Source: an uncultured Nitrospirales bacterium (GTDB lineage Bacteria; Nitrospirota; Nitrospiria; Nitrospirales; UBA8639). Taken from it: 64,000 bases of DNA. A model generated the notes under the pieces. That model saw only the letters and a program-made list of their open reading frames with translations. It made no database searches and had not been told where the DNA came from. Positions 28,018 through 39,987 of the stretch are shown here, piece after piece. The stretch is from assembly GCA_958295805.1 (NCBI GenBank), contig OY282373.1:467001-531000 (forward strand), given 5' to 3'. Every line of letters starts with the position of its first letter. The stretch's first letter is position 1. The translations under genes were made by a program, and so were the position numbers.

Positions 28018-30957
28018 TTATCCGATGGATTTCAATTCCAATTTGGTTTGCCATCGCCGCAACATGGTGGCTTTGAGGAATTGATGGTCAGGGTGTGACA
28101 ACTCGGGGTCCTGTTCCACCAGGGCATGGGCGTCTGCCCGAGCGCGTTCCAGCAACGCGGCGTCCCGAACCAGATCCGCCACGCGAAATTCGGGTATCCC
28201 CCATTGTCGAGTTCCCAACATGTCGCCGGGCCCGCGAATATTCAGATCCTGTTCGGCAATCGCAAATCCATCAGAGCACTGCACCATGGCTTTCAGGCGT
28301 TGCTCGCCGGTCTGGGTCGGCTTGGCCACCGGCGGGGGCGCGGACGCCGTTCCCTTCTCGAACTGCAAGCCCGTCCTGAGCCTGCCTTGGGCTTGCCCTG
28401 AGCTTGCCCTGAGCTTGCCCTGAGCTTGCCCTGAGCCTCGAAGTGCCGCGAAGGGACTCGAAGGATCGAAACGGGAGGGAGCCTCTCTCCCGGATGCCGA
28501 TGGTTCCGTGCCGTGAAGGTCGTGGTGCTTCGTTTTTCTTCCTGCTGAACTGATTAAGAGACAATACGACCGTTGCAGGCCGCGGCCCACTCTGCCGCGA
28601 AGTTGGTGGAGTTGGGCGAGCCCGAACCGGTCGGCGTGTTCAATCACCATGACCGCCGCATTGGGGACATCCAACCCCACTTCGATGACCGTGGTCGCCA
28701 CAAGGACGTGAATCTCTCCCGCCTTGAAGGCTTTCATAATGGCGGCTTTCTCATCCGACTTCATCCGTCCGTGGAGGAGCCCCAGTTTCCACGTAGGAAA
28801 TTCCTCCGTCTGTAAGCGTTCCGCGGCCAGGATTGCGGCTTCCAGATCGAGTTTTTCCGATTCCTCCACCAGTGGATACACGATGTAGGCCTGCCGCCCC
28901 TTGTTGACTTCTTTCCGCACCAACTCATAGGCCCGGTGACGCGCCTGATGGCGAAAGACCCGGGTCTGAATGGGAGTCCGGCCCGGCGGCAATCCATCAA
29001 TGATGGACACGTTGAGGTCTCCGTAGACCGTCATGGCCAAGGTACGGGGGATCGGGGTGGCCGTCATGACCAGGACGTCCGGCTGTTGTCCTTTTTCTCG
29101 CAGTTTCCCTCGCTGCAACACGCCGAATTTGTGTTGTTCATCCACGACGACCAAGCCTAACCGATGAAATTGGACGTTCTGCTCCAAGAGCGCGTGCGTC
29201 CCCACGACGACCCGTATGTCCCCGTGAGCGACGGATTCCAAGATCCGTGCCCGCTCCTTTTGCGATGTCCCTCCCGTCAGCAGGGCCACGGAAACGTCAA
29301 GCGGTTCGAGGTATTGCTGAATGGTCAAAAAATGCTGCTCGGCCAGAATTTCCGTTGGAGCCATTAAGACGGCCTGGTATCCGTCTCCGCACGCCGCCAA
29401 CATGGCATGAAGGGCGACGACGGTTTTCCCCGATCCCACGTCTCCTTGAATGAGCCGATTCATGGGTTGGGGCGTGCTCATGTCTCTTTCGATCTCGGCA
29501 ATCACGCGTTGTTGAGCGTCGGTCAACTGAAACGGCAAATGATCGTACAACTTGGTGGTCAACGTTCTCGTGAGACGAAAGGCAATGCCCGGGACCGCTT
29601 GGTGAGTTCGTTGTCGGATGGCCAAGGCAAGCTGAAGCAGGAAACACTCTTCGAAGGCCAAACGCCGGCGGGCCGCCGTCTGTCCGCTGTTGAGCAGGGT
29701 AACGTCCTCGGTCTTGCTTGGAAAATGGCTCTCTGCAATCGCCGCGTGGAACGAGGGCCAATGATGTCGCTCAAGGAGACTCGCGGGGAGCGGATCCGGT
29801 AAGTGGGCGTCATGAGCTTCCAGAAGAGCCTGCATGATCCAGCGAAGTTGGCGGGAACTCAGCCCCCGCGTTTCATGATAGATCGGCACGATGCGGCCCA
29901 CGTGAAGGAGCAAGTCTTCATCCGCGCCGACTAATTCATATTGAGGGCTTTTCATCTGGACCCCGTTCACGTAGCGAGGGTGTGCCGCGACCGGACCGCT
30001 CAGCACGACGCGCAATCCGCTTTTGAGCACGCTTTCGAGGTACGGTTGATTGAAAAACACCACGTCCACGGTACCCGTGTCATCACGAACCGACATGGTC
30101 AGCAGGGTCATGGACCGCCGCCGCGTCCGCTGGAGCCGGGCTTGGTGAATGGTGCCGGCAATGGTGGCTTTTTCGTCGGGGACCAGTTTGCCGATGGGCA
30201 CGATGTGAGATCGATCTTCATACCGCCAAGGTAAAAACCACAACGCGTCTTCAATCGTGCGAATCCCCAGTTTTTCCAATAACGCGGCCCGCTTGGGTCC
30301 CACCCCTTTCGCAAACCGGATGTCGATCTCGTGGGGAAGCTCCCCCCCCATCCCTCCCTGGTGGGGGCGGGATGGGGAGGAGTGTCTGGTTGTCTCTTTG
30401 ACCTGTTCTGGATTGATCGTCACATGGCGAGCATGACCCGGTTCTGAATCGGGTGCCGACTCGAACGGCCCAGGCTCCCCTTCCACCCTTCCCTCTCCCA
30501 CCGGGAGAGGGCCAGGGTGAGGGCGAAGGGCCATGGTTGATAAACGGTCCAGGATTTCTTTAGCCGCGGCTAATCGGTTCCTGGCCCGTTCCTGCCCTGA
30601 GCCTCGAAGAGTTCCCCTGAGGCTTGCCCTGAGCCTCGAAGGGTTCCCCTGAGCCTCGAAGGGTCTCGAAGTGCCTCGAAGGGAGCCGCCTTCTTGCTCG
30701 TGGTCTTGAAACAAGGAGCACAGAACGAGTAACTCCGCTTCAACTTGCCGCGGGAACACGTGTTTCCCCAAGGCGTTGACGACGTGGGTGGAAAGAAACG
30801 AGTGAAGCCGTTTGATGGTTGAGGCAGAATGGTCCTCGTTCCGATAGGCGACCTGAACGGGGCCACCCAATCGGTTGACCAACTCCTGTAATCCCGGGTC
30901 ATGGTCCGGGACGTGTTCATCAGGGTTGTGCGCGTCTGTCGGAGAGGAACTTGCCAC
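28018..30957 (-). CDS. recG: ATP-dependent DNA helicase RecG with in-frame repeat insertions
   Basis: 979 residues, far above the usual 680-850. RecG remodels stalled replication forks. The wedge domain start (KGVGPKRAALLEKLGI), Walker A (GDVGSGKTVVAL), DEQHKFG, the motif VI region (LRGRVGRG) and the RecG-specific RGPGDMLGTRQWG are intact. Extra length comes from low-complexity segments encoded by genomic repeats: about residues 88-122, 140-160, 188-207 and a long loop of about 80 residues (near 815-890) between LLISSAG and RLKAMVQC. The start is a GTG with no visible Shine-Dalgarno sequence. The gene pairs with ppx/gppA downstream. Confidence 0.93.
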   Translation of the reverse strand: MASSSPTDAHNPDEHVPDHDPGLQELVNRLGGPVQVAYRNEDHSASTIKRLHSFLSTHVVNALGKHVFPRQVEAELLVLCSLFQDHEQEGGSLRGTSRPFEAQGNPSRLRASLRGTLRGSGQERARNRLAAAKEILDRLSTMALRPHPGPLPVGEGRVEGEPGPFESAPDSEPGHARHVTINPEQVKETTRHSSPSRPHQGGMGGELPHEIDIRFAKGVGPKRAALLEKLGIRTIEDALWFLPWRYEDRSHIVPIGKLVPDEKATIAGTIHQARLQRTRRRSMTLLTMSVRDDTGTVDVVFFNQPYLESVLKSGLRVVLSGPVAAHPRYVNGVQMKSPQYELVGADEDLLLHVGRIVPIYHETRGLSSRQLRWIMQALLEAHDAHLPDPLPASLLERHHWPSFHAAIAESHFPSKTEDVTLLNSGQTAARRRLAFEECFLLQLALAIRQRTHQAVPGIAFRLTRTLTTKLYDHLPFQLTDAQQRVIAEIERDMSTPQPMNRLIQGDVGSGKTVVALHAMLAACGDGYQAVLMAPTEILAEQHFLTIQQYLEPLDVSVALLTGGTSQKERARILESVAHGDIRVVVGTHALLEQNVQFHRLGLVVVDEQHKFGVLQRGKLREKGQQPDVLVMTATPIPRTLAMTVYGDLNVSIIDGLPPGRTPIQTRVFRHQARHRAYELVRKEVNKGRQAYIVYPLVEESEKLDLEAAILAAERLQTEEFPTWKLGLLHGRMKSDEKAAIMKAFKAGEIHVLVATTVIEVGLDVPNAAVMVIEHADRFGLAQLHQLRGRVGRGLQRSYCLLISSAGRKTKHHDLHGTEPSASGREAPSRFDPSSPFAALRGSGQAQGKLRASSGQAQGRLRTGLQFEKGTASAPPPVAKPTQTGEQRLKAMVQCSDGFAIAEQDLNIRGPGDMLGTRQWGIPEFRVADLVRDAALLERARADAHALVEQDPELSHPDHQFLKATMLRRWQTKLELKSIG
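28306..28512. repeat. repeat array in frame inside recG, with 11-bp tandem units
   Basis: The motif CCCTGAGCTTG is repeated about four times head to tail (28386-28432), flanked by CCCTGAGCCTCGAAG and GGGACTCGAAGGATCG. Because 11 is not a multiple of 3, three units encode an 11-residue peptide period (GQAQGKLRASS type). The stretch sits in a loop between helicase motif VI and the RecG C-terminal motif and keeps the frame open. Confidence 0.8.
30335..30385. repeat. palindromic repeat in frame inside recG
   Basis: GCTCCCCCCCCATCCCTCCC and its near-complement TGGTGGGGGCGGGATGGGGA form a long inverted repeat. It encodes SSPSRPHQGGMGGELPHE just before the RecG wedge domain. Confidence 0.65.
30480..30527. 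repeat. REP-like palindrome in frame inside recG
   Basis: CCCTTCCCTCTCCCACCGGG followed by AGAGGGCCAGGGTGAGGGCG. It is close to the intergenic copies near 48440 and encodes RPHPGPLPVGEGRVEGEP. Confidence 0.75.
30594..30690. repeat. CCCTGAGCCTCGAAGGG repeat cluster in frame inside recG
   Basis: About four imperfect copies of (C)CCTGAGCCTCGAAG(GG) follow each other here. Single copies occur at 41275-41298 (end of lolA) and in ftsK (near 42000, 43540, 43800). The cluster encodes residues rich in R, G, S and L (LRGTSRPFEAQG, LRASLRGTLRG) in the N-terminal part of RecG. Confidence 0.7.
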
Positions 30958-32123: not shown

Positions 32124-32593
32124 AAATTTTACGCTAAAGCCAGTCTACTCCCTTCCCAAGCCGTTTGAACAGGGTGGATTAAGGCGAGAAGGGGGAAGCA
32201 AATGCAAATCGTCGGCGTGGGTGGTAAGCGGGCGGTTGGGCTCAAGCTCAACGTTGCGGGGTAGGATGTTGACCGTTACGATGGATTGCAAGTTGGTAGG
32301 TGGTAGTGCAGGCCAAGGAGATGAAGAATCTGTGGTGCCTTTTTGTAGTAAGTGCATTAGGAGGGACAGGCACGCTCATCCGATAGTGCGCCAAGCGTTG
32401 GGGGCGAGACAAATTTCGCTACATCAAGGGGATGCTGCTAGCACTGTGGCTATAGCATTGATCTTGCTGTTCAGACCGGCGGGCGGGAACTTAGAGTACG
32501 ACCGATGTTGAAGACGAATACGATCAAACGACGCACACATTCGCTGTTACGCCAGAGTTTGATGTTTTATGAGCACTGAACCAGGAGAGGAAA
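32124..32593. other. intergenic boundary of the accessory cassette
   Basis: About 470 bases with no convincing gene, RNA or repeat that I can identify. Composition becomes AT-richer toward its right end, which is where the six-gene accessory cassette begins. AGGAGAGG lies immediately before the first start codon. A left junction of a transferred segment probably lies here, but I see no tRNA, integrase or obvious direct repeat. Confidence 0.4.
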
Positions 32594-33628
32594 ATGGTCG
32601 AAAAACACACAATGCTGAACGTCGAATCTGTGTCCTTCGATACTGATAACCCTAGAATAAAAATGGCATTGGAGAAATATGGAGATCAGCTAAATGCTGA
32701 GCGTATTCACTTCGCTTTGCGTTCGGCTACAGATGGGGCAGCGGGTACTTCCTCTTATTCTTCTCTTAGAGATTCAATCCGTGCCAGTGGTGGGGTGATG
32801 TCCCCGATTACCGTTATAAATAAAGGCGTCGGATATGTTTGCATTGATGGAAATACCAGGCTTGCTATCTATAAAGAATTTCTTAGAGATGCTATAGAAG
32901 GGCCTTGGTCTGAGATCAAAGCAATAGTTTTGGCCGATGCGGACCAACGCGATATTGAGACAATTCGTGTGTCGGCGCACTTGGTTGGTTCCAGAGAATG
33001 GCCTGCCTACGAAAAGGCAAGGTATCTTCATTATCTACGCAACAGCAGATTCATGGATTATGGTGAAATGATAATGCTCTGTGGTGGCAACAAAACCAAC
33101 ATAGAGCGTCAGATTGATGCTTATCATGACATGAATGAATATTATCGTGATGTGGTTGATGACACGGCGTTTCATATCGACAGGTTTAGCGGTTTTGTTG
33201 AATTGCAGAAACCGAGGGTTAAGGAGGCCATATTCGATGCTGGTCTAGACCTGAAAGATTTTGGGGAATGGATTCGTGATGGAAAAATATACCGTTTGGA
33301 AGATGTACGGCAGTTGCCCAAAGTTCTTCGTAACGATGAAGCAAAAAAAGCATTCCTTGCCGGAGGCCCTCGCTCTATAGAAACGGCCATCAACCTACTT
33401 GACCGACAAGCAGAAAAAGATCCGTCTCAAAAAGATAGTGAGATTATACTGGAAACCGCATCTGTGCATCAGCTAGCCGAGGTTCTTGCTCGACGCATCA
33501 ACGATTTGCCCTATTCTGAATTGCGAGCACTAAGAGACAAAAAACGAGACGACGTTGCGGAGCAGATAAGCACCCTGGAGGATTTGTCAGCACGGCTACA
33601 TGGGCTGCTTGAAGATGTCTCAGAGTGA
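32594..33628 (+). CDS. ParB/Srx-fold protein, first gene of the six-gene cassette
   Basis: 344 residues, AT-rich gene. The N-terminal third has a ParB/sulfiredoxin-like layout: DTDNPRIKMALEKYGDQ, then SLRDSIRASGGVMSPITVIN and GYVCIDGNTRLAIYKEF, the GNTRL motif corresponding to the ParB box II. REWPAYEKARYLHYLR follows, then a helical region that could hold a helix-turn-helix, and a charged C-terminus. ParB folds bind CTP or ATP and DNA, or act as nucleases; which applies is unknown. A close structural cousin is the fourth gene of the cassette. AGGAGAGG precedes the ATG, and the 3' end overlaps the next gene. Confidence 0.6.
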   Translation: MVEKHTMLNVESVSFDTDNPRIKMALEKYGDQLNAERIHFALRSATDGAAGTSSYSSLRDSIRASGGVMSPITVINKGVGYVCIDGNTRLAIYKEFLRDAIEGPWSEIKAIVLADADQRDIETIRVSAHLVGSREWPAYEKARYLHYLRNSRFMDYGEMIMLCGGNKTNIERQIDAYHDMNEYYRDVVDDTAFHIDRFSGFVELQKPRVKEAIFDAGLDLKDFGEWIRDGKIYRLEDVRQLPKVLRNDEAKKAFLAGGPRSIETAINLLDRQAEKDPSQKDSEIILETASVHQLAEVLARRINDLPYSELRALRDKKRDDVAEQISTLEDLSARLHGLLEDVSE

Positions 33629-34058
33629 CCAGCACAGAAATCTGGCAATTCAGGTGGTGAAAGCGCTTGAGTCCCGATATCCACTGATGTCGTTTATTGC
33701 TGACGTGCAGCAGAAGCCCGGCGACCCAGTGCCTCCCGTAATTGATGGGTTCCACCCGGATGTGTATGCCACCCAAAAGTCAGGCAGTTCGATTGTCATT
33801 GCTGAGGCCAAGACTGATGGCGACCTTGACAACAAACATACCAACAACCAAGTAGTGTCTTTTGTCAATTATCTTGAACGAAGAAGAAATGGTTTTTTCT
33901 TCTTGTCGGTAACTGGTTGCGGAGCTAATCGTGCCAAGACCTTATTGCGGTTTGTATGTCAAGTCACGCATGTGACGAGTACAGCCATTGGAGTATTCGA
34001 TGGCTGTGACTTTTGGTCGCTAGATTCAAGGAACAGGGCAACGTGGCATTTAAGCTAA
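33600..34058 (+). CDS. small PD-(D/E)XK nuclease-like protein
   Basis: 152 residues (147 if the ATG at 33615 is used). I recognise no family. The segment DGFHPDVYATQ followed by SIVIAEAKTDGDLDN fits a PD-(D/E)XK nuclease core, with Asp, then Glu-x-Lys, followed by a helix (NNQVVSFVNYLE). The size fits a single nuclease domain, as in Vsr- or Hjc-like folds. It overlaps the upstream ParB-like gene by 29 nt and the helicase gene by 16 nt, so all three are translated together. A nuclease beside a SNF2 helicase suggests a split restriction-like machine. Catalysis is inferred from motif only. Confidence 0.5.
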   Translation: MGCLKMSQSDQHRNLAIQVVKALESRYPLMSFIADVQQKPGDPVPPVIDGFHPDVYATQKSGSSIVIAEAKTDGDLDNKHTNNQVVSFVNYLERRRNGFFFLSVTGCGANRAKTLLRFVCQVTHVTSTAIGVFDGCDFWSLDSRNRATWHLS

Positions 34059-35509
34059 GAAAATCGCCCATGCTGAGCGCCAAATATGACGCTTACCCAT
34101 ATCAGCTTGATGCTGTCAGGGCAGTGCAATCTTTGTCGCACGCTGCGATATTTCATGAACAGGGACTAGGCAAGACAAAAATCGCGATTGATCTGATGTT
34201 GTTATGGCTAAGCGAAGATGTTGTCGATACCGTGTTCGTGGTCACCAAAAAGACGTTGGTTCAAAATTGGTTTGATGAATTGGTGTCACACTCGCATGTC
34301 ACACCTAGAATTCTGTCAGATAACCGTCGAGAAAACAGCATTGCCTTGAACTCGCCAGTACTGGTTTACATCATGAACTACGAAGTTGTATCGACAAACC
34401 TTGATCTCATACGTGAGTTCCTTGGAACCTGCCAAGTGGGAGCAATCCTGGACGAAAGTCAGAAGATTAAGAACCCAGAATCAAAGCTCTCGGTCTGTTT
34501 TCATTCCATAGCCGACAAATTTGTGCGTCGCATCATCATGACCGGAACTCCTGTGGCTAATCGCCCCTATGACATTTGGTCCCAAATCAAGTTTCTCGAC
34601 AATGGTAAATCGCTTGGTGATTCGTTTGCCGAATTCAAAACAGCACTTGATTTGCCACTTAGATCTGTTTCGGTGTCTGAGTATGGCAGGCGGTTAGCTG
34701 ATGTTATGGGCAGGATCAAGCATTTCTCGGTACGAGATACAAAGCGCACAGCAGGTATCGAACTTCCTGATAAAACCATTCTAACTCATTTTGTCGAACT
34801 GGCACCTCACCAATCTGCAATATATATTGCTTACAGAGACGAGATGGCTTACGAGTTTGATGGCGTCGGCGGTCTTGTCATTGATGACGCCGAAGATATT
34901 TTGAAACGTCTGTTGCGCTTGGTGCAATGCGCATCGAATCCTGCTCTTGTGGATGAAACCTATAATGAGCTTCCTGGAAAATATCCGAAGCTGGTTGAGT
35001 TATTTGGTGATATTGATCTTCAGTCGAACAAAGCTATTATATGGACCGGATTTGTCAACAATGTCGAATGGTTGAACAAAAAACTAAACCAGTTCATGCC
35101 GCAGATGGTGCATGGCTATATGTCCGTTTCTGATCGAAACGAATCAATTAGAAAATTCAAGACGGATAATGGTTGCAGAATTTTGTTAGCTACTCCAGGC
35201 GCAGCAAAGGAAGGATTGACCTTAACCGTTGCGAATCACGCAATATTCTATGACCGCGGATTTAGCCTTGATGACTATCTTCAAGCACAGGATCGCATCC
35301 ATCGAATTTCACAAGCTGAAGAGTGTTTCGTGCATAATCTCATCGCTAAGGACACCATTGATGAGTGGGTGGACATGTTGCTTAATGCCAAGTATCAAGC
35401 CGCTCAGTTAACGCAGGGCGATATACTGCGCGAGGAATTTGGCGCGATGTTTACGTGTGATCTGTCAGAGGCATTGACACAAATACTTTCACCTCCCGGA
35501 CATTCGTAA
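34043..35509 (+). CDS. SNF2-family DNA helicase/translocase
   Basis: 488 residues from the GTG at 34043, chosen for AAGGA 10 nt upstream; a TTG at 34013 and an ATG at 34070 are alternatives. The core is complete: PYQLDAVRAV (Q-like), HEQGLGKTKIAIDL (Walker A), VVTKKTLVQNW (Ia), AILDESQKIKN (motif II, DESQ), IMTGTPVAN (III), KAIIWTGF (IV), LLATPGAAKEGLTL (V) and QAQDRIHRISQ (VI). This is a compact SNF2 protein without accessory domains. Such proteins translocate on duplex DNA in several defence systems (DISARM, Dpd). The gene is AT-rich like its neighbours. Confidence 0.88.
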   Translation: MAFKLRKSPMLSAKYDAYPYQLDAVRAVQSLSHAAIFHEQGLGKTKIAIDLMLLWLSEDVVDTVFVVTKKTLVQNWFDELVSHSHVTPRILSDNRRENSIALNSPVLVYIMNYEVVSTNLDLIREFLGTCQVGAILDESQKIKNPESKLSVCFHSIADKFVRRIIMTGTPVANRPYDIWSQIKFLDNGKSLGDSFAEFKTALDLPLRSVSVSEYGRRLADVMGRIKHFSVRDTKRTAGIELPDKTILTHFVELAPHQSAIYIAYRDEMAYEFDGVGGLVIDDAEDILKRLLRLVQCASNPALVDETYNELPGKYPKLVELFGDIDLQSNKAIIWTGFVNNVEWLNKKLNQFMPQMVHGYMSVSDRNESIRKFKTDNGCRILLATPGAAKEGLTLTVANHAIFYDRGFSLDDYLQAQDRIHRISQAEECFVHNLIAKDTIDEWVDMLLNAKYQAAQLTQGDILREEFGAMFTCDLSEALTQILSPPGHS

Positions 35510-35534
35510 CATTTGTTATGGAGGATCACAAAGC

Positions 35535-36545
35535 ATGAGAGAGAAAGATATGAAAATTCTTGGTGAAACCATCCAGCTAACCAATGACTACCTCGAAATA
35601 AGTAATCTCAAGTTCCTGAAAGATAACCCGAGAGTATATGCCTGTACGCATGGTGAACCCAATTTCGATGACCTAACTGATGAAGAACAACAAGACAAAA
35701 TATTTCAAAAGCTCCTGCAAGAGCCGAGCGTCAAGAATTTGAAGCCCGAAGTGAAACGACATGACGGTCTTATGGAGCCGATATTAGTTCGCCACGACAC
35801 CCAAGAAGTCATAGAGGGTAATTCCCGATTGGCTGTTTATCGACAACTGCAGCAGGAGAAGGCTGAGGGTGAATGGGGACTTATTCCTTGTGACATAGTA
35901 AGCAGTCTGACAGATGAGCAACAAGCAGCTTTCCTAAATCAGATTCATGTCAAAGGCAAAACATCGTGGTCTGCTTACGAGAAGGCCAATTTTGCTTTTG
36001 TACGATTCCACCGCGAAATTAGCATTAAAAAGATTGCAGAGACATTTGGCGAAACGGAACTCGAGATCAAAAAAAGAGTCGAAATTATTTCCAAGATGCA
36101 AGAAAACGGAGATAATGACATATCTCATTTCGCCTATTACGATGTGCTTGTGCGAAATCGGCAGATATCTGTGTCGATAACTGACAATATCGAATTGCGA
36201 GACTTTCTTTTAAAAAATATCAAGGAGCTTAGTCCTGATGACAGTGAAGTTGAATTTACTTCACAAGATCTTCGGGATAAGTTGCCGACGATTATTTCCA
36301 AACCGAAAGTACTGAAAAAGTACATTAACGGTACGGTGACTCTTGACGAAGGCTATCAAGATGCGAAGATCAGTGGCGCACATGAGAGAGTCAAACAGGC
36401 ACATCAACGTCTAAGTGATATTACGGAAAAAGAGCTTAAACAGCTAGATAACAATGCATTGAATTCATTGGAGCAGGATGTTCGCAAATTAAACAGAACC
36501 GTTCAGCGTATCAATGACATGATTGGGAAGATCAAAGATGGATGA
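35535..36545 (+). CDS. second ParB/Srx-fold protein of the cassette
   Basis: 336 residues, ATG at 35535 with GGAGG about 11 nt upstream. ISNLKFLKDNPRVYA, then LMEPILVRHDTQEVIEGNSRLAVYRQL gives the ParB-like fold with a GNSRL box. KGKTSWSAYEKANFAFVRFH matches the WPAYEKARYLHY stretch of the first cassette gene at the same relative position, so the two are distant paralogues. KKIAETFGETELEIKKRVEI looks like a helix-turn-helix. The C-terminus (LKQLDNNALNSLEQDVRKLN) is a probable coiled coil. The two proteins may form a heteromer around DNA with the SNF2 enzyme. Function unknown. Confidence 0.6.
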   Translation: MREKDMKILGETIQLTNDYLEISNLKFLKDNPRVYACTHGEPNFDDLTDEEQQDKIFQKLLQEPSVKNLKPEVKRHDGLMEPILVRHDTQEVIEGNSRLAVYRQLQQEKAEGEWGLIPCDIVSSLTDEQQAAFLNQIHVKGKTSWSAYEKANFAFVRFHREISIKKIAETFGETELEIKKRVEIISKMQENGDNDISHFAYYDVLVRNRQISVSITDNIELRDFLLKNIKELSPDDSEVEFTSQDLRDKLPTIISKPKVLKKYINGTVTLDEGYQDAKISGAHERVKQAHQRLSDITEKELKQLDNNALNSLEQDVRKLNRTVQRINDMIGKIKDG

Positions 36546-36634
36546 GTCAGTTCAAAATACTACCGACAGCATTTGGCTAAATAAAATTTGCACCGGATAA
36601 AATTTCTACGCTTACTAAAGTAACAAGCAACCTC

Positions 36635-38278
36635 ATGAATCCGAAAAACATCCTGCTAATTGAACCCGGGTATCCGAATAAGTACCCACCGCTTGGCTTG
36701 ATGAAGTTGGCTGCGTACCACGGCCCCCGTGGTCGGGGTGACCGTGTAAAGTTCGTGAAGGGTGCAACACCTGCGATATTGGATCAAGCGTGGGACCGTG
36801 TCTACGTGACCACGCTGTTCAGCTTCGAATGGGCACGGACGGCGGGAGCGATCGATTTCGCTATTCTGGCGGCGGGTAACCAATCGGAACGGGTCTTTGT
36901 TGGTGGCATCGCTGCCTCACTGATGTATGATGAGTTCGTGAAAGAGCCGCGATGGGCGGGCGTCCGCTTTATCAAGGGACTGTTGGACCGCCCACCAGCG
37001 TTGGCACTGGCCTTATCAGCGACCGATGGGGATTTCGGCGTTGACGACTTGGGTGGCATGCCTATTGAGGAGCGGGTGCCGGATTACAGTATTCTTGACC
37101 AGATTGACTACCGCTATCCGGTGCATGATGCGTATTTTGGCTACGCCTCGCGGGGCTGCGTCAGACAATGTGCCTTCTGTGGCGTTCCGAAACTGGAAGG
37201 GGCGCAACGGGAAATGCCCCCACTAGCGAGGCTCGTCAACGGAATCGATGTCGCGCATGGGACGAAAAAAGACCTCGTGTTGATGGATAACAACATCACA
37301 GCCTCCGCACGGTTCAAGGAAGTGATGGCCGAAATCCGTGCCCTCGGGTTCACCGCAGGGGCAAAACTCAGCCGCAATGGCAGGCAGCCCGTCAAGCGCC
37401 GGGTCGATTTCAACCAGGGAGTCGATGCCCGTATTCTCGCTAAGACCCCGATGTTTTTGCGCGAGATGGCGACCATCTGCATCAACCCGTTGAGGGTCGC
37501 GTTTGACCATATCGGTCTCAGGACGGTCTATGAAACATCTGTCCGCATGGCGGTCGATCATGGTATTACGGCCTTGTCCAACTATTTGCTGTACAATTTT
37601 ATGGACACCCCTGCTGATTTGTATGAACGGATGAGGCTCAATATTCGCATGAATGAGGAATTGGGAATCCGTATTTGGTCGTTCCCGATGCGGTATCAGC
37701 CTATCACCCTGAAAGACCGCTCGCATGTCGGAGAGCACTGGAATCGGTATGTTCTTCGTTCTTTCCAGATCATGCTGCAAGCCACTCGCGGTATTGTCAG
37801 CGGAAGCCAGTCCTTCTTCATGCGGGCCTATGGTGATGACCGGCGGGCGTTCGAGCGATTATTGAGTCTTCCGCACGCCTTCATTTTTCACCGTGACTAC
37901 TATGAGAAGGGTGCAGGACAGCCGGTCCGTGACGAATACATGGCGTTACGTCGCCGCTTCTCGGAACGTCAAGAACGGGAATTGATCCATCTTCTGTCTG
38001 TACCTACGGAAGCGACGGAACTCCGGCGTGACTATTACCAGCGGTTGGCCAAAGACCGCGGGCTTGATCCCCTCATCCGACGAGTTCTGCGGTTTCACAT
38101 CCTGGATACCAAGGACGGACCGATGGCCGACGGCATATCCGATTTGCCACGGTTTCTCACGTTCGATTCAGACCTCAGTATGCCTGAACAGTCTGAGACC
38201 GTTGAAGATGCCGGCCTGTTCGACCATGAACACGTGCTGGAACAGGATGACAAGCGTCGAGTGAAGACGGCGAACTGA
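36635..38278 (+). CDS. radical SAM enzyme with B12-binding-like N-terminus
   Basis: 547 residues. The N-terminus (ILLIEPGYPNKYPPLGLMKLAAYH) resembles the cobalamin-binding-like domain of B12-dependent radical SAM proteins, although no clear DxHxxG is seen. The cluster motif is SRGCVRQCAFCGVPKLEG, i.e. CxxxCxxC at about residues 172-179. LVLMDNNITAS is the next beta strand of the barrel, and RVDFNQGVDARIL follows as in MiaB/MTase-like members. The substrate is unknown; base, protein or small-molecule modification are all possible. It has higher GC than the four genes before it and starts about 90 bp after them. Radical SAM enzymes are rare in defence loci. Confidence 0.75.
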   Translation: MNPKNILLIEPGYPNKYPPLGLMKLAAYHGPRGRGDRVKFVKGATPAILDQAWDRVYVTTLFSFEWARTAGAIDFAILAAGNQSERVFVGGIAASLMYDEFVKEPRWAGVRFIKGLLDRPPALALALSATDGDFGVDDLGGMPIEERVPDYSILDQIDYRYPVHDAYFGYASRGCVRQCAFCGVPKLEGAQREMPPLARLVNGIDVAHGTKKDLVLMDNNITASARFKEVMAEIRALGFTAGAKLSRNGRQPVKRRVDFNQGVDARILAKTPMFLREMATICINPLRVAFDHIGLRTVYETSVRMAVDHGITALSNYLLYNFMDTPADLYERMRLNIRMNEELGIRIWSFPMRYQPITLKDRSHVGEHWNRYVLRSFQIMLQATRGIVSGSQSFFMRAYGDDRRAFERLLSLPHAFIFHRDYYEKGAGQPVRDEYMALRRRFSERQERELIHLLSVPTEATELRRDYYQRLAKDRGLDPLIRRVLRFHILDTKDGPMADGISDLPRFLTFDSDLSMPEQSETVEDAGLFDHEHVLEQDDKRRVKTAN

Positions 38279-38299
38279 CCAGTATTCCGGGGGGATGAA

Positions 38300-39841
38300 A
38301 TGCCAAACGCAGACGCACCGGAATCGTTGGTAGGCGGCGACTTATTCAACCTCATCACTGCGGGTCTGTACGACAATCCACTGGTCATCTATCGTGAATA
38401 CATCCAGAATGCGGCTGACGCAATCGTCTCCGCTGGGGACACGGTGAACGGGAAGGTCGAGGTCGACATTGATCCGTCTGGGTTGCGCGTGAAGATTCGA
38501 GACAACGGGTCTGGCTTGTCACACGAAGCAGCAGTCAGGGAACTGCTACCCATCGCTAGGAGCCAAAAGCGACGAAAAACCGATAGAGGGTTTCGCGGAA
38601 TTGGACGCTTGTCGGGACTCGCTTTCGCTGAGTCTGTGACGTTCTTAACACGTGCCGAAAGTGAACGTCCTGCCACCCGTATCGTCTGGAATGGCCCCAA
38701 ACTCCGCAAGTGCATCACTGAGACTGGAAAGATAGAACGCGCGATTCGTGAGTGCGTCAGAATTGAGACCGTGGCTGGCTTGGACTATCCCGCCCATTTC
38801 TTCGAGGTTGAAGTCGGCGGTGTCGGGCGGCACGCTGCGGGGCTGATACTTAACCGGGAAGCCGTCCGAACGTACATTGGGGAAGTTTGTCCCGTTCCGA
38901 TGGCGACGATATTCCCATTCGCGTCAGACATCGAAAACCTCTTCGGAGAGAATGAGGCACCACTGGCGCTAGATATCATCTTTGACGGCGAATGCATGCC
39001 CATCACGCGACGATATGGCGAGATGATTCGATTGTCGCAAGACCGACAGGACTGCTTCAGGGAATTTGAAGAAATCGACATTCCCTCTGCAGACAGAAGC
39101 GAAAGTGCTGCCGTTGGCTGGGTCGCTCATTCATCATACCTCGGCGCGATACCAAAAGAGGCTGGGATTCGGGGCGTTCGAGCACGTGTAGGAAACATAC
39201 AGATTGGCAGTGAGTCTGTTTTTGATCGCCTCTTTCAAGATGAAAGATTCAATCGCTGGTGCGTCGGCGAGATTCACATTGTGGACCCGCGTATCGTTCC
39301 GAACGGACGACGCGATTACTTTGAACCTGGGCCGCACACGCGAAATCTTGAAAATCAGCTTGCCGCCGTTATCCATAGAATAGTGACTCGATGCCGGAAG
39401 GCATCGGCGATGCGCAACAAAAAGCGGAAGTTTCTGTCTACACTACGCCAAATGGAGGAAACCTATGATCTTGCGGTCTCCGGATATCTATTACCTAAAG
39501 ATGCGAAAGCCATGGTCAGACAGGTGTTGAACCGTCTCCGGGATATCCGCGATGAGAACCTCGATCCAAAAAATGGCCACACGAAAGATGATCTTGAGCA
39601 GCTAGAGGCGATGGGGATGAAATTGGACAACTTCAAACCTAGGACTAGCCGGCCGATATTCAGAAATATCACGGATTCTGAGATATCGACCTACCGAAAG
39701 ATTTTTCAAACCTTGGCGGAGGTATCGCAATCACCACACGCCGCAAAAGAAATGATTGAGGCCATCCTGTCGCACACCCATGAAATTGGTTCCTCCAATA
39801 TTGCCGCCCGATCGAGTCGCACCTTCCGGTCGAAGGGATGA
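38300..39841 (+). CDS. HSP90-like GHKL ATPase
   Basis: 513 residues, start 21 nt after the radical SAM stop. The Bergerat ATP-binding fold is complete at the N-terminus: YREYIQNAADAI (N box, with Glu, Asn and Asp), IRDNGSGL (G1, DxGxG) and GFRGIGRLSGLAFA (G2). The layout follows the HSP90/HtpG N-terminal and middle domains: IHIVDPRIVPNGRRDYFE resembles the middle-domain catalytic loop with an Arg. The C-terminal 150 residues are helical and unrecognised. HSP90-like proteins act as ATP-driven clamps; one could regulate or load the cassette enzymes. Another GHKL protein is encoded at 63325. Confidence 0.78.
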   Translation: MPNADAPESLVGGDLFNLITAGLYDNPLVIYREYIQNAADAIVSAGDTVNGKVEVDIDPSGLRVKIRDNGSGLSHEAAVRELLPIARSQKRRKTDRGFRGIGRLSGLAFAESVTFLTRAESERPATRIVWNGPKLRKCITETGKIERAIRECVRIETVAGLDYPAHFFEVEVGGVGRHAAGLILNREAVRTYIGEVCPVPMATIFPFASDIENLFGENEAPLALDIIFDGECMPITRRYGEMIRLSQDRQDCFREFEEIDIPSADRSESAAVGWVAHSSYLGAIPKEAGIRGVRARVGNIQIGSESVFDRLFQDERFNRWCVGEIHIVDPRIVPNGRRDYFEPGPHTRNLENQLAAVIHRIVTRCRKASAMRNKKRKFLSTLRQMEETYDLAVSGYLLPKDAKAMVRQVLNRLRDIRDENLDPKNGHTKDDLEQLEAMGMKLDNFKPRTSRPIFRNITDSEISTYRKIFQTLAEVSQSPHAAKEMIEAILSHTHEIGSSNIAARSSRTFRSKG

Positions 39842-39987
39842 GGTGATACGCACTCAAACCCCTTTTAAGAAAGTGATCGATCTTTTCTGGTATGGAAACG
39901 CGAATTCATGCGATTGATGATCTTTTCTGGGGATACAAAGAGAGAAGAAATGGGGTTGAATAGTTCGATGTTTGATAAAGAGAGACA

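Follow-up and report, generated by a model that had tools for sequence, protein, structure and literature searches.

A conserved radical-SAM/GHKL ATPase pair with exchangeable partner modules in a defence-like six-gene cassette of an uncultured Nitrospirales bacterium

The stretch of DNA analysed here, hereafter the window, comprises 64,000 nucleotides (positions 467,001-531,000) of the 2.9-Mb single-contig genome of an uncultured Nitrospirales bacterium (GenBank assembly GCA_958295805.1, contig OY282373.1). Between msrB and gph it carries a cassette of six genes, which an earlier note on this DNA had described as lying on one strand in the order ParB-like, PD-(D/E)XK-like, SNF2, ParB-like, radical SAM (S-adenosylmethionine) and HSP90-like ATPase, with the first three overlapping. 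The open reading frames (ORFs) on the plus strand confirmed this arrangement, and the features are as follows, in window positions and with the basis of each call in brackets.

32594..33628, plus strand: gene 1 (ParB1), probable ParB/Srx-like protein of 344 amino acids with a GNTR motif (PHROGs, Pfam, alignment)
33600..34058, plus strand: gene 2, predicted PD-(D/E)XK nuclease of 152 amino acids with P53 D54, E69-x-K71 and Q84 (motif, AlphaFold2 model)
34013..35509, plus strand: gene 3, SNF2-type DNA translocase by sequence, 498 amino acids counted from TTG (Pfam, motifs)
35535..36545, plus strand: gene 4 (ParB2), probable ParB/Srx-like protein of 336 amino acids with an EGNSR motif (PHROGs, profile, alignment)
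36635..38278, plus strand: gene 5, radical-SAM enzyme by sequence, with a predicted class B (cobalamin-binding) fold, 547 amino acids, C175/C179/C182 (PHROGs, cysteines, AlphaFold2 model)
38300..39841, plus strand: gene 6 (GHKL1), Hsp90-like ATPase by sequence, 513 amino acids, with an N box, DNGSG, GFRGIGR and NGRRD (hidden Markov models, motifs)
32124..39987, no strand given: inserted segment, msrB to gph (msrB-gph spacing in congeners versus here)

Genes 1 and 2 overlap by 29 bp and genes 2 and 3 by 46 bp. Gene 3 could plausibly start instead at a GTG at 34043, with which the latter overlap would be only 16 bp. The subsequent gaps are 25 bp (genes 3/4), 89 bp (genes 4/5) and 21 bp (genes 5/6). 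The GC content is 0.41-0.48 in genes 1-4 and 0.53-0.55 in genes 5-6, compared with 0.577 in the remaining window, in agreement with the earlier claim that genes 1-4 are AT-richer and genes 5-6 nearer to the core genome.

Gene 5 was firmly assigned by sequence to the radical-SAM enzymes, on the basis of its PHROGs match (phrog_9298, 1.1e-36) and of the CxxxCxxC cluster ligands C175, C179 and C182, which were invariant in 60 sequences of the family. The Pfam radical-SAM match was below the cut-off, and a sequence search among solved structures gave just weak radical-SAM matches. The AlphaFold model (pLDDT 86) has a cobalamin-type Rossmann domain at the N terminus, followed by a radical-SAM barrel and, towards the C terminus, a helical region; it matched the radical-SAM structures AprD4 (Z 16.3), MgmA (15.7), TsrM (15.5) and MiaB (14.4), followed by OxsB, TokK and CysS, and its residues 1-135 matched B12 domains (AerR, methionine synthase) as well as full-length TsrM, AprD4 and MgmA. 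The architecture of the predicted fold is thus of class B (cobalamin-binding type), which does not imply that cobalamin is used. AprD4 has a fold of this type yet is not known to use B12. The three cluster ligands were the only invariant cysteines among the 60 sequences, and therefore a second cluster of the MiaB/RimO kind is not conserved in the family; the DxHxxG motif is also absent from the family consensus. Strong conservation was found at IEPGYxNKYPPLGLMK in the N-terminal domain and at RVDFNQGVDAR, and the conserved domain together with the latter sequence points to a specific ligand or partner of the enzyme.

The assignment of gene 6 to the Hsp90-like GHKL ATPases is likewise firm at the sequence level, with matches to Pfam HATPase_c_3 (1.3e-8), to the NCBIfam HSP90 family (2e-13) and, with its family profile, to HtpG (9e-13). 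Its family keeps the N box and the G1/G2 motifs of the Bergerat fold that characterize GHKL/Hsp90-like proteins. Gene 3 is firmly predicted to encode an SNF2-type translocase, since it matched SNF2-rel_dom (2.6e-26) and Helicase_C (7e-16) in Pfam and has the motifs expected of this group, GLGKT (Walker A), DESQ and QAQDRIHRISQ. Gene 2 gave no family match in profile library scans and no nuclease match in a sequence search among solved structures. However, PD53-54, E69-A-K71 and Q84 were kept in 39-40 of 40 homologues, which also share H12 and D75, and the AlphaFold model (pLDDT 94) has a restriction-endonuclease topology, with the small subunit of R.BspD6I (Z 9.2), SdaI, EndoMS and BstEII as top structural matches. 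Because of the conserved motif and the modelled fold, gene 2 can be regarded with high confidence as a PD-(D/E)XK nuclease.

Genes 1 and 4 were assigned less firmly as probable ParB/Srx-like proteins. Gene 1 showed weak PHROGs matches (ParB-like, 1e-4; phrog_3694, 1.5e-6), its Mesorhizobium orthologue matched Pfam ParB_N weakly, and GNTR was invariant across the ParB1 alignment. A profile match of ParB1 to a racemase (E 0.0017) was taken as spurious. Gene 4 showed a weak ParB-like PHROGs match (1.7e-4) and its profile retrieved ParB family proteins among solved structures only weakly (E 0.05), whereas EGNSRLA was invariant across the ParB2 alignment. Accordingly, the domain identities proposed from the letters alone stood for the PD-(D/E)XK, SNF2, radical-SAM and HSP90-like proteins, and the two ParB-like calls were weaker.

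A scan of a genome collection with the radical-SAM alignment yielded 230 relatives, of which the best 80 were kept; plasmids and viral contigs were taken in addition, and the dereplicated set comprised 84 loci. The best 80 of the 230 belong to Nitrospirota, Proteobacteria, Chloroflexi, Acidobacteria, Gemmatimonadota, Verrucomicrobia, Latescibacterota and others. In 81 of the 84 loci the radical-SAM gene is followed immediately by GHKL1 in the same orientation, with a median gap of -4 bp. Of the other three loci, two are located at the end of a contig and one (L078) is a true exception. The protein distances of radical SAM and GHKL1 correlated with r = 0.92, compared with 0.34 for radical SAM and SNF2 (0.55 when four divergent SNF2 proteins were left out). 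This adjacency and this correlation indicate that radical SAM and GHKL1 are the conserved, co-diverging core of the system.

In contrast to the core, the partners vary. The ParB-PD-(D/E)XK-SNF2-ParB block was found in 42 of the 84 loci and in four arrangements relative to the core, namely upstream on the same strand as here (27), downstream on the same strand (4), upstream on the opposite strand (6) and downstream on the opposite strand (5). Alternative modules are PIN_8-GHKL2 (17 of 84) and NurA-HerA-GHKL2 (8 of 84), the latter never together with the ParB block in these loci, and in a few loci the module consists of a HerA/DndH-like ATPase, GHKL2 and an uncharacterised protein. NurA and HerA were named by similarity to Marinitoga camini virus 1 (29% to the annotated HerA, 26% to the single-stranded exonuclease). 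This virus itself has a 30% identical radical-SAM gene beside its HerA and NurA genes (L192 6998-10824). In 33 of the 84 loci a gene of the DndB family (DGQHR) is found no further than 2.5 kb from the core, and in the plasmid copies it is immediately 5′ of the radical-SAM gene; the nearest PADLOC model is DpdB (5e-15), and the Pfam assignment is DndB. The version on rhizobial plasmids has the order ParB1-nuclease-SNF2-ParB2-DGQHR-radical-SAM-GHKL, and complete copies are present in Rhizobium sophoriradicis CC511 and Mesorhizobium sp. NZP2077.

The earlier note would have been contradicted if genes 1-4 and genes 5-6 belonged to separate loci. This was the case in one direction only: genes 5-6 often occur alone (42 of the 84 loci lack the block), but genes 1-4 were found only beside genes 5-6. 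All seven plasmids and all five viral contigs that carry ParB1 have the core within 10 kb, and no intact ParB block without the core was found among the ParB1-bearing plasmids, the viral contigs and 247 class genomes, a ParB1 fragment in one congener (G104:C29:105942-106121) being the sole lone occurrence. In class-wide genome searches around Rhizobium the system was found in the centre genome only, and it is thus rare.

Some neighbours in the wider family were recorded as well. A protein that combines a DndB domain with a HEPN_Swt1 domain at its C terminus adjoins the core on plasmid pNL1 (L026 15183-17492) and may be the ParB-HEPN fusion Saro_3948 of PMC3710099. Distant radical-SAM relatives of phages and plasmids (L193 4957-7906, L196 6675-14176, L195 8025-15054) have PAPS-reductase-like genes nearby and, in two cases (L193 and L196), DNA methyltransferase genes as well; a link to sulfur or base modification is possible. 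A protein resembling phage Gp37/Gp68 is near the core in three loci (L066 8722-9633, L085 and L095).

The msrB-gph spacing is 0.1-0.2 kb in most congeners where both genes were seen and 7.9 kb here, and the six-gene cassette recurs in the same order, with 51-84% identity, at other sites in two congeners (G083 and G135), consistent with the transfer that had been claimed. The identical six genes in identical order are also found in other phyla, so that the co-occurrence proposed as a check was observed and the arrangement is not due to chance. The congener G089 retains only a C-terminal radical-SAM remnant and an intact GHKL gene (L031 9519-11930) and G104 only the fragment mentioned above, which suggests repeated gain and loss. 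The cassette is a mobile, patchy and sometimes decaying insertion. No 10-mer or longer sequence, direct or inverted, is common to the two ends of the insertion. The view of the cassette as a composite unit holds in the sense of a modular assembly; the low GC content of genes 1-4 is common to the closest relatives, and therefore their joining with genes 5-6 is not recent.

Among the cassette-bearing congeners, L032 and L041 are metagenome-assembled genomes (MAGs) of Nitrospirales/Nitrospira. A Gammaproteobacteria MAG contig (L040) and the Nitrospira MAG contig L041 have near-identical cassettes and flanks, reflecting either recent transfer or mis-binning. Elsewhere in the window, the RecG ORF (28018-30957) is unusually long (979 amino acids), and in-frame low-complexity stretches such as LRASSGQAQGRLRT resemble inserted repeat elements. 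The same genome also has a dnd-like locus (L228 9335-16028; G000:C1 about 2,577,300-2,584,000) with DndB (442 bits), a DndC-like PP-loop protein, a DndD-like SMC ATPase and, on the opposite strand, a second DGQHR protein.

The genomic context was compared with PADLOC at E<=1e-12, using 105 flanking proteins and 90 control proteins from arbitrary regions of seven system-bearing genomes. The flanking proteins matched 83 models, including Shango, PARIS, Gabija, Ago-associated nuclease, Old and Septu, versus 9 for the controls, an enrichment that is qualitative because the counts are of models and not of independent genes. In this qualitative sense the neighbourhood is rich in defence families, as the suggested defence-island setting predicts, and from this context the system is most likely a defence against foreign DNA.

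How such a defence would work may be sketched as follows. The radical-SAM enzyme would mark nucleic acid of the host, most likely its DNA, and the ATP-driven GHKL protein would handle or load it, as a clamp or a chaperone, with the marking step regulated by the DndB/DpdB-like protein in many relatives. The SNF2 motor would be positioned by ParB1 and ParB2, which would bind DNA or read it, and where the proper mark is missing, SNF2 translocation would license cleavage by the small PD-(D/E)XK nuclease. Other lineages would rely for cutting on HerA and NurA or on a PIN RNase, each with a second GHKL ATPase. DNA is regarded as the likeliest substrate for two reasons: the module partners are mostly DNA motors combined with DNA nucleases, and relatives of DndB/DpdB are otherwise found alongside DNA modification. 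DNA modification with restriction would agree with the radical-SAM/B12 fold, with the alternative nuclease modules and with the frequency of a DndB-like partner. We consider the chances about even that the cassette represents one form of a modular system against foreign DNA which spreads horizontally and acts in this manner. The more specific proposal, an undescribed class of defence in which a cobalamin-type radical-SAM enzyme, working with an Hsp90-like ATPase, modifies DNA as the self-mark and interchangeable restriction modules read this mark, is put forward tentatively.

Several points weigh against the mechanism sketched above. The substrates of the solved fold relatives of the radical-SAM enzyme are small molecules, peptides, protein and tRNA, and in no case DNA; the GHKL protein could be a client chaperone of the enzyme instead of a DNA clamp; and the clade of the window is mostly without a DndB-like gene, so that its absence here reflects architecture rather than recent loss. 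The main rival, which we regard as rather unlikely, keeps the defence function and changes the substrate: the radical-SAM enzyme would modify tRNA, the ribosome or a protein, or make a small signal or a chain-terminating nucleotide, and infection would trigger a response of the abortive type by the GHKL and nuclease modules. MiaB (tRNA), RimO and MgmA (proteins) among the structural neighbours are in line with it, and the PIN_8 and HEPN_Swt1 domains of partners elsewhere are RNase types that would suit an RNA target. However, the partners also include DNA motors with DNA nucleases (SNF2 with PD-(D/E)XK; HerA with NurA), and DNA modification is the usual association of DndB/DpdB relatives elsewhere.

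Self-marking is also absent from an improbable scheme of modification-dependent, type IV-like restriction, in which the ParB/Srx proteins would sense bases modified by the invader (cf. DUF262, GmrSD/GrwAB) and the radical-SAM enzyme would process these bases. The use of DUF262 (ParB/Srx fold) sensors has been proposed for several modification-dependent nucleases (PMC12137116), and distant radical-SAM relatives sit in phages; yet the core pair is kept at loci without the ParB block, and therefore the radical-SAM enzyme is central and not accessory. The same dispensability of the block speaks against a role in maintenance of plasmids or mobile elements or in competition between plasmids, with the ParB-like proteins acting in segregation or in killing competitors. 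Plasmids do carry many of the homologues, with ParA or ScpB genes close by in some cases, and site-specific recombinases occur in about 14 loci, but the cassette is also inserted alone in chromosomes, as here, without replicon genes, and its neighbours are enriched in defence families; we give this role very little weight. That two unrelated operons became adjacent by accident could explain the GC difference between genes 1-4 and 5-6, but is contradicted already by linkage that recurs in four arrangements across phyla, and is hardly credible.

If marking of DNA is correct, this would be the first radical-SAM-based restriction-modification system, with a new DNA modification chemistry; more broadly, restriction-type immunity would be built on radical chemistry and a novel nucleic-acid modification, with a near-fixed Hsp90-like ATPase partner. 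The recruitment of DNA-cutting and RNase-type effector modules by one enzymatic core bears on the evolution of defence by module exchange, and because many phyla have the system and culturable rhizobia carry it on plasmids, it is directly testable.

The comparison with known systems agreed with the earlier statement that no named system is known to have this combination: neither a description nor a model of the radical-SAM/GHKL pair was found in the literature searched or in PADLOC 2023. In PADLOC the radical-SAM protein had no match at E<=1, its Mesorhizobium orthologue and that of GHKL1 had none at E<=0.01, and GHKL1 of the window gave weak matches only (TmtA, 1e-4). Zorya was rejected since ZorD similarity is generic SNF2 similarity and no ZorA/ZorB accompanies it. 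The hallmark methylase, DpdA and sulfur genes had been reported missing, and indeed the cassette lacks the DrmA/DrmB/DrmC and methylase set of DISARM (generic SNF2 similarity to DrmD only), any DpdA match among the six proteins (the DpdE match is generic SNF2) and any DndC/DndD/DndE match.

GHKL ATPases, superfamily 2 (SF2) helicases and nucleases are known in restriction-modification operons (Iyer 2008, PMC2292703), and the MORC/paraMORC operons described there resemble the cassette in having a GHKL protein with an S5-like region, SF2 (including SNF2) helicases and PD-(D/E)XK-type nucleases. Those operons, however, commonly encode DNA methylases, whereas the cassette has none and has a predicted class B radical-SAM enzyme as the near-invariant partner. 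Modification cores with exchangeable restriction modules are known for Dnd (PMC10853773, which covers DndB and nucleases and not the radical-SAM/GHKL pair). Dnd and Dpd share with the present system a core with exchangeable nuclease modules, motors of the SNF2 (DpdE) and HerA (DndH) types and, in many relatives of the cassette, a DndB/DpdB-family partner, but they have no counterpart of the pair, and the cassette has no DndC, DndD, DndE or DpdA. HerA-NurA systems correspond to one alternative module, which here is joined by a second GHKL ATPase and the radical-SAM/GHKL core. In VcSduA a GHKL ATPase gates a PD-(D/E)XK nuclease in phage defence (PMC12137116), a similar coupling; unlike the separate genes of the cassette, VcSduA is a single fused protein with DUF4263 and without radical-SAM, SNF2 or ParB. 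Compared with class B enzymes (TsrM, AprD4, MgmA, OxsB) and MiaB/RimO, gene 5 shares the N-terminal cobalamin-type Rossmann domain, the barrel and CxxxCxxC, but is only 10-17% identical, lacks DxHxxG in its consensus, has an additional C-terminal helical region and sits in a defence-like module. With these likenesses and differences, the system is best read as a modular defence of the modification-restriction kind, with a real chance that it is a distinct class.

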